Below the pieces are notes generated by a model, which worked only from the letters and a program-made list of their open reading frames with translations, had not been told where the DNA came from and did no database searches. The position numbers and the translations under genes are program-made. Below, in pieces: positions 2,135-11,467 of a stretch of DNA of 21,585 bases (the stretch's first letter is position 1; each line of letters starts with the position of its first letter). The stretch is taken from positions 1 to 21,585 of the IMG/VR virus record IMGVR_UViG_3300037217_000082, one strand, 5' to 3'. Origin of the DNA: a virus.

Positions 2135-3870
2135 GCGGCGGGCTTGACAATGTCCGGCGCTTGCGGGATAGCACGGAAGACGAGCCGCCGAGCGATGGCG
2201 GTTCCGTCGATACCGACGAGTGCCCGGTTACGGTGCTTGGCCGCGCGGCCGGCGTTTATTACTTCATCGCCGCCTCGGGCGAGCTCATGGAAATCGCCGC
2301 GCGGGAGATGACGCCGCGCGTGATCAACAGCGTCTTCGACGGTCGCCTGCGCTGGCTGATCGACAATTTCCCGGCCGTCGACAAGGCCGGCGATCCGACC
2401 GGCGGCGTCAATTACAACTCGGCCGCGGCAGGGTTGATGCGCATGGCGGCGGACCGGCCGATCTGGGATCGCGAAACGCCGATCCGCGGTCGCGGCGTGT
2501 GGCGCAGCGGCGACAAGGTGATCGTGCATTGCGGCGACGGCGTGCTGGTCGGGCGCGACTGGCAGCGGCCCGGCCTCATGATGGGCGCCGCCGTCTATCC
2601 GGCCTATGCGGCGATCCGGCGGCCGGCCGAGCGCGCGGCCACGGCCGCGGATGGCGCGCGGCTGCTCCAGGCTTTCGGTTTGTGGAATTACCAGCGGCCT
2701 GTCATGGGCCATCTGTCGCTCGGCTGGTGCTCGCTCGCCATGCTGGGCGCGGCGCCGCGCTGGCGGGCGCATTTTCTGGCGACCGGCGATCGCGGCTGCG
2801 GGAAAAGCGCGCTCATGAACCTGTTCGGGGCAGCGCTCGGGCCGCAGTCCTATGCGCTTAACGATTTCACCCCAGCCAGCATTCAGCAGACGCTGAACGG
2901 GCAGGGCCGCGCGCTGCTGCTCGACGAAGCCGAGGACGACGGCAGCCTCGGCCGAGTGCAACAGGTCATCGAATTGCTGCGGAAAATGTCCGGTGGAGAC
3001 GGTGCCGTTGGCGCCCGCGGCTCGTCCGGCGGCCAGGCGCGCAGCTTCGTCGTCAACGCGACGACGGCGCTTGGCGCGATCAATCCGCCGCAGCTGCTGC
3101 CGCAGGATCGCAGCCGCATCCTCGTGTGCGAGCTCGGCAAGATCGTCGATACGTCGAACGAAGCCAAGGTGCTGTCGGAAACGCTGTGGGCCGAACAAAT
3201 GTCGCCGCGATTGCGCGCGCGCATGTTGCGTGGGTGGTCGCGCTTCGGCCAGGCGCTCGAGTTCTGGCGGGCCGAGCTTCTGCAAACCTTCTGCGACAAC
3301 CGGCAGGCCGATCAGATCGGCTGTCTCTTGGCCGCGGCCGATATCATGCTCAACGACGCGCCGCCGGACGCGGATTCCACGCGCGTGCTGATCGAGGCGT
3401 TGACGCCGGTGCTGGTCGCGATGTTCCACGCCGACAGTGAGCAGACCGATCCGCAGCTCTGCCTCAACCGCCTCTTCTCGCGCCAGATCGAGGCGTGGGA
3501 CAAGGGGTCGAAGGAGACCGTTGGCGCGGTGGTCGAGAAGGCGCTTACCAACGATTTTCCGGAAACGGCGGAAAAGGCTTTGCGGCGCAACGGGATGCGC
3601 CTCGAAGCGCATAACGGGGAATGGGTGCTGCTGGTCGCGCACATCCATAACGGCATGGCCGAAATCTTCCGCGCGTCGCGCTGGCGAGATGGCGGGTGGA
3701 ACTCGGCGCTATCCCGCATCGAACGCACATTTCCCTGGCCGAAGCCCGAGAAATTTGCCGGTGCGCAGTCGCGGGCGATCGCGATACCGATGGAATACCT
3801 GCCGCTGCCGGAGGATAAGATACTGCGCAGCGTGCCGCCGGCCAGGCCTCCAGATACTGGGGGTGCATGA
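2131..3870 (+). CDS. P-loop helicase/ATPase of phage replication
   Basis: Encodes 579 residues from a GTG overlapping the primase stop by four bases. Walker A is TGDRGCGKSA at residues 218-227 with K225 and S226. Walker B is ALLLDEAED at 261-269 with D265 and E266. A sensor-1-like Asn is at N309 (SFVVNATTALGAI), and QDRSRILV downstream may hold an arginine finger. The region before the P-loop (about 30-210) carries no motif I recognise. The architecture fits the primase-helicase partners of phages, with the primase half supplied by the upstream gene. Likely role: ATP-driven unwinding at the replication fork in the host cytoplasm. SF3-like or DUF927-like affiliation is plausible but not settled by eye. 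Confidence 0.75.
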   Translation: MSGGLDNVRRLRDSTEDEPPSDGGSVDTDECPVTVLGRAAGVYYFIAASGELMEIAAREMTPRVINSVFDGRLRWLIDNFPAVDKAGDPTGGVNYNSAAAGLMRMAADRPIWDRETPIRGRGVWRSGDKVIVHCGDGVLVGRDWQRPGLMMGAAVYPAYAAIRRPAERAATAADGARLLQAFGLWNYQRPVMGHLSLGWCSLAMLGAAPRWRAHFLATGDRGCGKSALMNLFGAALGPQSYALNDFTPASIQQTLNGQGRALLLDEAEDDGSLGRVQQVIELLRKMSGGDGAVGARGSSGGQARSFVVNATTALGAINPPQLLPQDRSRILVCELGKIVDTSNEAKVLSETLWAEQMSPRLRARMLRGWSRFGQALEFWRAELLQTFCDNRQADQIGCLLAAADIMLNDAPPDADSTRVLIEALTPVLVAMFHADSEQTDPQLCLNRLFSRQIEAWDKGSKETVGAVVEKALTNDFPETAEKALRRNGMRLEAHNGEWVLLVAHIHNGMAEIFRASRWRDGGWNSALSRIERTFPWPKPEKFAGAQSRAIAIPMEYLPLPEDKILRSVPPARPPDTGGA

Positions 3871-4079
3871 ATGATCATCCACCATATGTGGTGGTTCGTT
3901 CCGCCGCTTCATCGATTATCGGGCTCGTCGAAGCGGTACGGGGAGCGCTACGCGTATCGCCTGCGTACCACTTTGCGTACCAGAATTTTATCCAATATTT
4001 TCAGACGGTTATAGCAAGAGGATACGGGCCGTACCGGCGCCGTCTCGTGACGACGCGCGCACCCGTGACAGGCCTATAG
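3867..4079 (+). CDS. doubtful small ORF in the intergenic region
   Basis: A 70-codon open frame whose ATG overlaps the helicase stop by four bases, as real genes do here. The product begins MNDHPPYVVVRSAASS and resembles nothing I know. Against it being real: it runs through an AT-richer stretch that contains octamer repeats (TGCGTACC at 3962 and 3974) and a near-perfect 16-base palindrome at 3879-3894, so the bases may be conserved for DNA-level reasons. It is listed as possible only. Confidence 0.25.
   Translation: MNDHPPYVVVRSAASSIIGLVEAVRGALRVSPAYHFAYQNFIQYFQTVIARGYGPYRRRLVTTRAPVTGL
3962..3982 (+). repeat. direct repeat TGCGTACCA x2 (left octamer pair)
   Basis: The nonamer TGCGTACCA occurs at 3962-3970 and again at 3974-3982, a start-to-start spacing of 12 bases (slightly over one helical turn). 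The first eight bases are the reverse complement of the pair at 4156-4174. A related GGTACGGGG lies at 3935-3943 and CGTACCGG at 4030-4037. Phased short repeats like these usually bind a dimeric or multimeric protein. Confidence 0.65.
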
Positions 4080-4107
4080 CGTCTCATCACGTATCGTTCG
4101 TATCTAT

Positions 4108-8220: not shown

Positions 8221-8480
8221 GGTTCAACCCGTCGACATCCGACCTGGCCGGCGTCCCGCACGCGACATTGCAGCGCTGGTTGGGTGAGGCGCAGGAAGCG
8301 CTGCATCAGCTGTCGATCGGCGGCTTGCCGCAGGCCTTGTCCTACGGCCAGGGCGAAAGCACGAAATCCGTGACCTACACCCGTGCCGAGATGGCGTCGC
8401 TGCGCGCGCATATCGCCTCGCTCAAGGCGCAGCTCGGCATCCACGATCGGTCGCGTCGCGCGATCAGGCCGATCTTCTGA
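8217..8480 (+). CDS. head-to-tail joining protein, lambda gpW family
   Basis: Encodes 87 residues from an ATG overlapping the terminase stop. The core, LQRWLGEAQEALHQLSIGG then KSVTYTRAEMASLRAHIAS and LKAQLG, matches the gpW pattern of two helices around a beta hairpin. In lambda, gpW binds the portal ring after packaging to retain DNA and prepare the site for gpFII. It sits between terminase and portal, exactly as in lambda. It is slightly longer than lambda gpW (68 residues) because of an N-terminal extension and a basic C-terminal tail. Confidence 0.85.
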   Translation: MRFNPSTSDLAGVPHATLQRWLGEAQEALHQLSIGGLPQALSYGQGESTKSVTYTRAEMASLRAHIASLKAQLGIHDRSRRAIRPIF

Positions 8481-10177
8481 TGCGCAAATCTGTCAAGCCG
8501 ACACGCCTGAAGCACGGTGGTGCCGCCGGCAAGGGCACGCCGACGCCGCGCGCCGATGGCGGCGCCGTGCCCGGTGCCGGCGATCCGGTGCGCCGCGCGC
8601 TGGGGCCTGGCCAGGGCTGGTTCCCCTACCAGGCCGCGGCGTGGGGTACGCAGGAAATGGGCGATTGGTGGCCGTGGATACGGTCGCCGGATGCCGAATA
8701 CACGGACTACCGCGACCTCATGGTCGCGCGCAGCCGCGACCTTGTCCGCAATGATGGCACAGCGTCAGGCGCCGTCACGCGCGTCCTCGACAACACCGTG
8801 GGTGCGGGCATGAAGCTGATGGCGCTGCCCGATTACAGTGCGCTGAAGATCGACAATCCCGCCTTCGATGCGAAATGGGCGGCGGAATTCGGGGCGGCGG
8901 CCGAAGCGCTGTTCCGCGAATATGGCGGCGATATCGGCCATTGGAACGACGTCCAGCGGCAGCTCACGACCGGGCAGCAGCAGCGTTTGGCGCTACGGCA
9001 CCAGCTGATCGACGGCGAGGCGTTCATCGTCAATTACTGGCGTCCCGATCGGATCGGCTACGGCGCTGCGCGCTATGCCACGGCGTCGCTCGTCGTAGAT
9101 CCCGACTTGTTATCGAACCCCTATGAGCGGGTCGATACCCGCTACCTGCGCGGCGGCGTCGAAATCGACGACGATGGCGTCCCGATCGCCTATCACATCC
9201 GCCGGGCGCATCAGAACGATTGGTATGGTGCGTTGGAATCGATGGAGTGGGAGCGCGTCGAAGCCGAGGATGAGGACGGCTGGCGCCGCGTGATCCACAG
9301 CTATGAGCGCGACCGTGCCAGCCAGCATCGCGGCATTGGCGTGTTCACGCCGGTGCTGGCGCGCATGAAGATGCTGGCCAGGTACTACGGGGTCGAGCTC
9401 CAGGCCGCGACGCTCGCCGCGTCGCTCGGCGTCTATATCACCAGCCCGTTCGACAAGGAGATGTTGACGCAGGCCGTCGATGGCGGCCGGAACAGCAGCG
9501 ATATGCTGACCAGATATCTCGGCATCCAGGGTATCGCGCATGATGAGAACCCGGTGCATTTCAACGGCACGGTTCTCCCGATACTGACACCGGGAGAGGA
9601 CGTCAAGACCGTCACGGCAGCGCATCCGCACAACGCGTTCGGGGCCTTTTCCTCGGCGATGTTGCGCACGATGGCCGCGTCTGTTGGCGTTTCGGACGGA
9701 CAAATCACGCAGGATTGGGGCGGATACAACTATTCGTCTGCGCGCGTTTCGCTGATGGAAGCCTGGAAGACACTTGTGCGACGGCGCGAGGATTTCATCA
9801 TCTCGTGCGCCATGCCGCATTACGCCGTGTGGCTGCGCGAGGCCTTCGAACGCCGCATGCTGCCTCTGCCGCGCAACGCGCGGGCCTTCATGGAACGCGC
9901 GACGTCCTATGCCCGCTGCACCTTCCTCGGGCCGGGCCGCGGTTGGATTGATCCCGTCAAGGAGCGGCAGGGCAGCGTGCTCGGCATGGATGCCGGCCTC
10001 TCGACCCTCTCGCACGAAGCGGCCGAGAACTCCGGCCGCGACTGGCGGGAAATCCTCGATCAGCGACAGATCGAGCTGCTGGCCTTCGACGAACGCGGCC
10101 TGCCGCGGCCGAGCTGGCAGGGCACGTTCGATGCGAGCTCGGCATCCGATCCGCCGCAAGAGCCGCAGCCGCGGTAA
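8480..10177 (+). CDS. portal protein, lambda gpB family
   Basis: Encodes 565 residues; the ATG overlaps the gpW stop. The dodecameric portal forms the DNA channel at one head vertex. Family features include the early RSRDLVRNDGTASGAVTRVLDN stretch (about 75-100, shown here in part), a LRHQLIDGEAFIVNY segment, SASVGVSDGQ-like MAASVGVSDGQITQD, and YNYSSARVSLMEAWK, all typical of lambda-type portals. Residues 521-546 (DWREILDQRQ through GLPRPSW) are the normal C-terminal block; a further 19 residues follow it. That block is repeated in the next gene (10524-10601) at 60 of 78 identical bases by my count, implying a past duplication or insertion here. The core protein looks intact. Confidence 0.93.
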   Translation: MRKSVKPTRLKHGGAAGKGTPTPRADGGAVPGAGDPVRRALGPGQGWFPYQAAAWGTQEMGDWWPWIRSPDAEYTDYRDLMVARSRDLVRNDGTASGAVTRVLDNTVGAGMKLMALPDYSALKIDNPAFDAKWAAEFGAAAEALFREYGGDIGHWNDVQRQLTTGQQQRLALRHQLIDGEAFIVNYWRPDRIGYGAARYATASLVVDPDLLSNPYERVDTRYLRGGVEIDDDGVPIAYHIRRAHQNDWYGALESMEWERVEAEDEDGWRRVIHSYERDRASQHRGIGVFTPVLARMKMLARYYGVELQAATLAASLGVYITSPFDKEMLTQAVDGGRNSSDMLTRYLGIQGIAHDENPVHFNGTVLPILTPGEDVKTVTAAHPHNAFGAFSSAMLRTMAASVGVSDGQITQDWGGYNYSSARVSLMEAWKTLVRRREDFIISCAMPHYAVWLREAFERRMLPLPRNARAFMERATSYARCTFLGPGRGWIDPVKERQGSVLGMDAGLSTLSHEAAENSGRDWREILDQRQIELLAFDERGLPRPSWQGTFDASSASDPPQEPQPR

Positions 10178-10196
10178 CCGATCTCAAGGAGTGATC

Positions 10197-10604
10197 ATGT
10201 GGTACGATCCCGTGAGGCGAGTATTTGTTTCGGGTCGCATATCGGTACTGCTGCCGCGTGACCTGGCGATCGCTCGGTCGCGCTTTGCGGTCAAGTACAG
10301 CTTCTATTTTTTCGGTATGCGCGATGAGTGTATTTTTGCGCTTGCGGAAACCAGGGAAAGCGCAGAGGCGTCCGCTAAAGAGCTTCGATCCTGGCGCAAG
10401 GGGTGCAGCGTCTGGGTTGACCCTCTGGGTGGGCAAGAAGATCTAGTCAATGCGATATTTGAATTCTTTACGCAACGTCCGCCATATGATCCCGAACTCT
10501 TGAAGGAATGGGTGCCGGCGACCGATTGGCGAGAGGTGCTCGATCAGCGCGAACGTGAGCGGTGCGCCTTCGCCGACCGCGGCCTGCCGCGACCGAGCTG
10601 GTAA
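10197..10604 (+). CDS. inserted small gene ending in a copy of the portal C-terminus
   Basis: Encodes 135 residues with a good AAGGAG ribosome binding site at 10186-10191. The first 108 residues are unfamiliar: MWYDPVRRVFVSGRI, an aromatic KYSFYFFGMRDECIF segment, a charged helix, then VDPLGGQEDLVNAIFEFF. Base composition here is visibly less GC-rich than in neighbours, suggesting foreign origin. The last 26 residues (DWREVLDQRE through GLPRPSW) match portal residues 521-546 at 19 of 26 positions. The stop overlaps the protease ATG (TAATG), as the original portal stop may once have done. I infer a moron-like insertion near the portal 3' end. Function unknown; the shared tail could let it contact portal partners. 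Confidence 0.7.
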   Translation: MWYDPVRRVFVSGRISVLLPRDLAIARSRFAVKYSFYFFGMRDECIFALAETRESAEASAKELRSWRKGCSVWVDPLGGQEDLVNAIFEFFTQRPPYDPELLKEWVPATDWREVLDQRERERCAFADRGLPRPSW

Positions 10605-11467
10605 TGAAGCGCTTCCCACACCTGGCGCAGCGTCTCTTCAACACGCCGATCGCCATCCTGCCGGCCAAGGCCGAGGTGGTCATGTGTGCGCTGGCCGATC
10701 GCCTGGGCATTGCCAAGCTGTTCCGGGCCGACGGTGGAACCGTGCCGCTCGCCATGGACGATTGGGAAGACGACGGGCCGGGTGAATATCGCGGCTACGA
10801 GCTGGTCGCCGATGTGGCGATCATCCCGGTCGAAGGGACGCTCGTCCAGAAGCTCGGCCAACTGCGGCCGTATTCCGGCATGTGCGGCTACGACGCGATC
10901 CGGGCTGGCCTGTCGATGTCGCTGGAAGATGAGCGCGTCCGGGCCATCGTCCTTGACATCGATTCACCGGGCGGCGAGGTGGCCGGCTGCTTCGACCTGG
11001 TCGACGCGATCTACGCCGCGCGCGGCACGAAACCGATCTGGGCGATCCTGTCGGAAACGGCATTCAGCGCTGCCTATGCCATTGCGTCGGCCGCCGATCG
11101 CATCTGCGTGCCCAGGACCGGAGGGACCGGATCGGTCGGCGTGATCTGCCTGCATGTTGATTTCTCGCAGGCGCTAGCCACCGAGGGCATCGCGGTCACC
11201 TTGATCCAATACGGCGCCCGGAAATCCGACGGGTCGGAATTCAAGCCCTTGTCGGCCGACGCACTCGCCCGGTTCCAGGCGGACGTCGACGGCATGGGCG
11301 AAATCTTCGTGGAGACTGTCGCGCGCAATCGAGGGCTCAAGGCGAACGCCGTTCGCGCGACCGAGGCGACGACCTTCCTCGGTGCGGCCGGCGTCAAGGT
11401 CGGCCTTGCCGACGCCGTCATGTCGCCCGATGCAGCCTTTGCCGAGCTGGTGAAACAGCTGGGCTGA
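10604..11467 (+). CDS. S49-family head maturation protease (lambda gpC-type)
   Basis: Encodes 287 residues from the ATG in TAATG. Lambda gpC-type proteases trim scaffold and head proteins during prohead maturation. The S49/SppA fold is clear: LDIDSPGGEVAG, then ETAFSAAYAIASAAD with nucleophile Ser155, then TGSVGVICLHVD, and the Lys general base at K207 in GARKSDG, followed by FVETVARNRGL and GLADAV. Lambda gpC continues into a scaffold domain, but this protein stops after the protease, and a scaffold-like protein is encoded separately just downstream. The 53 bases after the stop hold only a GC-rich direct repeat (GCGGCCCGGC at 11471 and 11490). Confidence 0.9.
   Translation: MKRFPHLAQRLFNTPIAILPAKAEVVMCALADRLGIAKLFRADGGTVPLAMDDWEDDGPGEYRGYELVADVAIIPVEGTLVQKLGQLRPYSGMCGYDAIRAGLSMSLEDERVRAIVLDIDSPGGEVAGCFDLVDAIYAARGTKPIWAILSETAFSAAYAIASAADRICVPRTGGTGSVGVICLHVDFSQALATEGIAVTLIQYGARKSDGSEFKPLSADALARFQADVDGMGEIFVETVARNRGLKANAVRATEATTFLGAAGVKVGLADAVMSPDAAFAELVKQLG

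Follow-up and report, generated by a model that had tools for sequence, protein, structure and literature searches.

Free-standing GIY-YIG homing endonucleases of phage T4 are sited between conserved genes, where they cut alleles that lack them and cause co-conversion, and their intron-encoded relatives are associated with illegitimate break repair at microhomologies (PMC2988022). SegB promotes segmental amplification (PMC13096335). In the lambda portal protein, residues 453-511 form the crown, and the structure leaves the last 20 residues unmodelled (PMC10721106). Here we describe a small gene, hereafter gene X, that lies between the portal and protease genes of a phage with a lambda-type head module. 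It resembles the T4 seg-type free-standing enzymes in its intergenic position (PMC2988022) and occupies the same junction as GIY-YIG genes of related phages (L023, L321, L328, L330 and L342), but differs from them in that no search run (Pfam, PHROGs, NCBIfam) found a GIY-YIG domain in it. Its last 26 residues correspond to the crown tail of lambda-family portals (PF05136, lambda gpB), whereas the other 109 have no significant portal similarity. Two junction genes of related phages, L036 and L190, are comparable to gene X in place, size class and possession of a head-gene fragment, but their bodies and fragments (portal ~386-421; terminase) differ, and their sequences are unrelated to that of gene X.

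The initial annotation proposed a moron-type insertion, and the comparison holds in part. Like a moron, gene X is an extra gene between genes that are adjacent in relatives (the closest relative, L005, and most others lack it), with atypical base composition (54.7% versus ~66% GC), an orphan body and no recognised function. Unlike a moron, it has no promoter-like or terminator-like site in a simple consensus scan (promoters of the sigma-70 type only), closes with sequence copied from the gene upstream, and overlaps the start of the protease gene.

The end of the portal gene is repeated at the end of gene X

The window, i.e., the whole stretch of DNA analysed, is the 21,585-base virus record IMGVR_UViG_3300037217_000082. 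Its head module includes genes for a GpA-type terminase, a portal (PF05136) and an S49 protease, and a tail sheath gene is also present. The features at the portal/protease junction are as follows.

8480..10177, + strand: lambda-family portal gene, 565 aa (PF05136, 304 bits over residues 58-436; phrog_21 portal)
10040..10117, + strand: repeat copy 1, portal residues 521-546 (60/78 nt versus copy 2)
10118..10177, + strand: 19 codons and stop 3' of the repeat in the portal gene (equal in length and homologous in L005)
10186..10191, + strand: Shine-Dalgarno-like AAGGAG 5' of the gene X ATG (sequence)
10197..10604, + strand: gene X, apparently chimeric open frame, 135 aa
10197..10523, + strand: gene X body, 109 residues, low GC, orphan (no significant match)
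10524..10601, + strand: repeat copy 2, portal-derived tail of gene X (19/26 aa, 60/78 nt; tail HMM 38.4 bits)
10602..10606, + strand: TAATG, gene X stop overlapping the protease start (sequence)
10604..11467, + strand: S49-family head maturation protease gene (PF01343; phrog_53)

The initial annotation had noted that portal codons 521-546 (10040-10117) recur as the final 26 codons of the following gene (10524-10601), and all of its figures were reproduced, with 60 of 78 bases and 19 of 26 residues in agreement. It had also described a stop of the second copy that overlaps the protease ATG and, between the copies, a lower-GC segment with its own ribosome binding site; both are present (TAA at 10602-10604, ATG at 10604; 54.7% GC in the body, AAGGAG 5' of the ATG). 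The match between the copies far exceeds chance. A six-frame search of the window with gene X recovered the portal copy at an E value of 3.3e-9, blastn gave 7e-11, and an HMM of the portal tail built without the window sequence scored 38.4 bits on gene X, confirming that the C-terminal crown tail of a lambda-family portal is present there. Beyond portals, this HMM produced no comparable match in the loci scanned, the single match being one of 9.6 bits in a reverse frame of L127. The copies are homologous from the DW codons to a W codon, after which copy 1 extends for 19 codons that are found in related portals and are absent from copy 2, which stops at TAATG.

An upstream extension of the repeat was considered and rejected. 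The apparent continuation (WVDP versus WIDP) scored no better than shuffles. Homology of gene X residues ~60-109 to the WIDP region of the portal, prompted by tblastn matches starting at query residue ~57-73, was ruled out by HMM and tail-fixed shuffles, 2046/3000 and 1455/3000 of which scored at least as high as the real sequence, and was also rejected in a pairwise test (19/150 shuffles).

Copy 1 and the working end of the portal gene

In L005, the closest relative found (portal 77% and protease 85% identical to the window), the portal/protease junction is 43 bases and gene X is absent. Homology of the L005 portal covers copy 1 and the following 19 codons, through the portal stop; this portal is closer to copy 1 (65/78 nt, 23 aa) than to copy 2 (60/78 nt, 19 aa). 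Comparison with relatives lacking the insert, as proposed in the initial annotation, thus joins the portal to copy 1. Among ~147 distinct portal tails, no protease-adjacent portal ends at the last tryptophan of copy 2; the few short portal ends in this set belong to contigs truncated at that point or to distant portals of another kind. When viral contigs were scanned with a degenerate pattern for portals ending RPSW-stop-ATG, just 4 matches were returned, all spurious. Because L005 aligns through copy 1 and the later codons, and no protease-adjacent portal ends at this tryptophan, copy 1, not copy 2, is the working end of the portal. The earlier suggestion that copy 2 might be the original end is supported by neither observation. 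By the initial annotation, relatives with gene X as a long-standing conserved portal partner and no insert-free forms would have counted against an insertion; relatives proved to be mostly insert-free.

The body of gene X looks foreign

The body of gene X (10197-10523) has a GC content of 54.7%, as against values of 65.6% (portal gene) and 66.1% (protease gene), and the contig reaches its GC minimum, measured in 327-nt windows, over it. Its frame is the sole stop-free one of the six and has the best codon-usage score, which nonetheless lies below those of the phage's own genes, indicating foreign codon usage. The frame is also open upstream to 9756, which is relevant to a plus-one frameshift fusing the portal to X, but GC-rich frames are often open.

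In agreement with the initial annotation's description of about 108 unfamiliar residues, database and structure searches with residues 1-109 gave no significant match. Nothing was detected in Pfam, including the PF05136 portal core domain, or in NCBIfam, and gene X had only chance-level, weak matches in PHROGs (phrog_1034, E 0.45), PADLOC (PDC-M06A, E 0.03) and the PDB (E 0.14). Residues 1-109 had no significant match in IMG/VR, phages or plasmids, and none in genome contigs searched with exact short peptide patterns, which would catch close relatives only. Searches of whole genomes from three groups (385, 369 and 299) likewise gave nothing significant, nearly all matches being to the ends of portal-sized frames. 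Neither the rest of the L005 record nor 19 further virus records contained gene X, although, as these are fragments, this bears only weakly on its distribution. Against a portal C-terminal profile, the body scored like shuffles. A derivation of the body from fragments of the window phage's own genes was tried with 17 profiles, none of which was convincing (the best, portal, reached p ~0.01 and 0.1 bits in 17 tests). The body of gene X looks like foreign DNA, for which these searches found no source.

The portal/protease junction repeatedly gains genes

Across 272 distinct junctions, the commonest state was a portal/protease stop/start overlap (194), and most relatives are insert-free. At least 100 bp of extra DNA was present in 15 of the 272, and these inserts are of many unrelated kinds. 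The portal/protease junction is therefore a recurrent landing site in these lambda-type head modules. Five loci carry GIY-YIG homing endonuclease genes at this position, of which the L328 gene matches PF01541 (29.0 bits; cutoff 22.6) and those of L023, L321, L330 and L342 are homologous to it. The junction genes with recognisable content include the following.

L328:4142-4927 and L023:4698-5489: genes for GIY-YIG homing endonucleases, located precisely between portal and protease in related phages
L036:4593-4856: small junction gene, 88 codons, with a portal core fragment (portal ~386-421)
L190:4072-4359: junction gene related to that of L036, with a conserved start and GWDTLENVR end

The fragment in the L036 gene (0/500 shuffles) matches PF05136 (E 2.8e-4) and is 82% identical over 51 nt to the portal gene of L029. 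L031, L030 and L029 are without the insert and are 91-96% identical to L036 on both flanks, providing a clean before/after pair in which an insert of ~260-270 bases, with stop/start overlaps at both ends, is joined at ~5 shared nt, TGA(G/C)C. The middle of the related L190 gene resembles the terminase nuclease domain (10.6 bits, 0/500 shuffles), and this gene may perhaps also include a short piece of portal. Together with gene X, three junction genes bear head-gene fragments, a small count and one found after the fact.

Other contents of the junction are varied. L087:5141-5545 and L115 have a 134-codon orphan with overlaps at both ends, and in L027:4542-5813, L028 and L035 the usual overlap is replaced by an in-frame N-terminal extension of the S49 protease, ~137 residues long and without a match in Pfam or PHROGs. 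Small hydrophobic genes occupy the junction of L032. The 134-aa gene and junction of L087 and L115 are identical, although the two MAGs are labelled Acidobacteriia and Telmatospirillum; this common prophage suggests mis-binning or recent transfer. In Paraburkholderia adhaesiva, portal and protease are separated by 968 bases of inserted low-GC DNA with a membrane-like 286-aa ORF on the minus strand (L114:5147-6004).

Origin of the portal-derived tail

Copies 1 and 2 differ by a pS of 0.45 and a pN of 0.16, and the whole portal genes of the window and L005 by a pS of 0.54 and a pN of 0.154. Given this resemblance in divergence, copy 2 looks like a portal tail from another phage in the clade, or like a duplicate that is just as old. 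The two copies fit the portal tail profile equally well (62.1 bits for copy 2, 61.9 bits for copy 1), and among the tails compared, only they and L005 have the RPSW ending. The portal of a sister phage or an old duplication is the probable source of copy 2, 26 codons being too few to separate these sources firmly. No donor with gene X or copy 2 was found. Recombination between two related portals, which the initial annotation offered as an alternative, is consistent with the tail, this being portal-derived and diverged to the extent of a related phage's portal.

A possible route to gene X

With moderate confidence, we favour the view that gene X is a chimeric recombinant gene at a junction of recurrent insertion, with a foreign body and a portal crown tail acquired, most likely, via the portal of a sister phage. 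That it is a recombination product is suggested by the repeated gain of foreign genes, including homing enzymes, at this junction in related phages. Gene X would have arisen by recombination or insertion between portal and protease, its last 26 codons most likely having been captured from the sister portal when the junction was repaired or recombined. The GIY-YIG enzymes known at the junction of relatives may be the likeliest source of breaks, judging from co-location; none was identified in the window phage. One would expect such enzymes to cut relatives without an insert, and chimeric repair products could result. From the same co-location, break repair of this kind would account for the position and recurrence of the inserts and for the scraps of head genes. 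Gene X itself may be translated from its own ribosome site within the late operon. Given the overlap between the X stop and the protease start, translation of the protease probably follows that of X by reinitiation; inspection of the sequence upstream of the protease start at TAATG revealed no obvious Shine-Dalgarno motif. The 3' stop/start overlap suggests that inserts survive when translation of the protease is kept going. On this account, gene X represents a small case of phage gene birth in which the copied part, the gene it came from, the position and the state without the insert are all identifiable.

Whether the tail also serves a function is a separate matter. The copied segment aligns with lambda gpB ~485-510, the end of the crown domain, and the end of copy 2 coincides with that of the ordered lambda crown (residue 511). 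A docking role is possible on this ground, but a scar would look alike. It is conceivable, though doubtful, that gene X encodes a small head protein which docks onto the portal ring or procapsid through the terminal crown segment, a segment kept by selection, as the tail spans the conserved crown tail, remains in frame and portal-like, and belongs to a gene in the head operon. However, if the origin from a donor portal is recent, the sequence owes its portal-like form to the donor and is uninformative about its use in X, no homologue of X demonstrates conservation, and structure prediction of X alone, made without relatives, was poor (pLDDT 44). If the tail does dock X on the portal, it would constitute a natural portal-targeting tag.

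An old duplication in which the phage copied its own portal 3' end in tandem, with the unrelated DNA of the X body inserted between the copies, would explain why the insert is flanked by a direct repeat and why the RPSW ending is confined to the two copies and L005 among the tails compared, and such a duplication within the lineage would fit the similar agreement of L005 with copy 1 (65/78 nt) and copy 2 (60/78 nt). We nevertheless regard it as unlikely, since the duplication is absent from L005, copy 2 lacks the 19 codons 3' of the tryptophan, and it has retained portal-like constraint (pN/pS ~0.36), unlike a freely decaying copy.

A broader and distinctly improbable extension of the recombinant reading is that the junction is a gene-making site, where homing breaks are repeatedly repaired with foreign DNA and scraps of head genes (portal tail, portal core, terminase), yielding new head-operon genes coupled translationally to the protease, their pieces serving as docking tags or as decoys for systems that sense portal or terminase proteins. 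With its independent inserts, homing enzymes and two more genes bearing head-gene fragments, the junction allows a direct test of whether homing breaks give rise to chimeric head genes.

Very little probability attaches to copy 2 being the original portal end, with copy 1 and gene X as arrivals, for although copy 2 adjoins the protease, L005 is nearer to copy 1 in both bases and residues, copy 1 carries on into the homologous 19 codons, and protease-adjacent portals in the compared loci never end at this tryptophan. An assembly chimera is scarcely credible, for while gene X is known from one metagenomic contig and its body is an orphan, the closest relative is the same on either flank, X runs as a single uninterrupted frame through the tail to the stop/start overlap, and the analogous gene has a clean insert/no-insert pair (L036 and L031).

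Elsewhere in the window, positions 3800-4080 form another low-GC patch, with a 70-aa orphan ORF at 3867-4079, which may also be a late insert.
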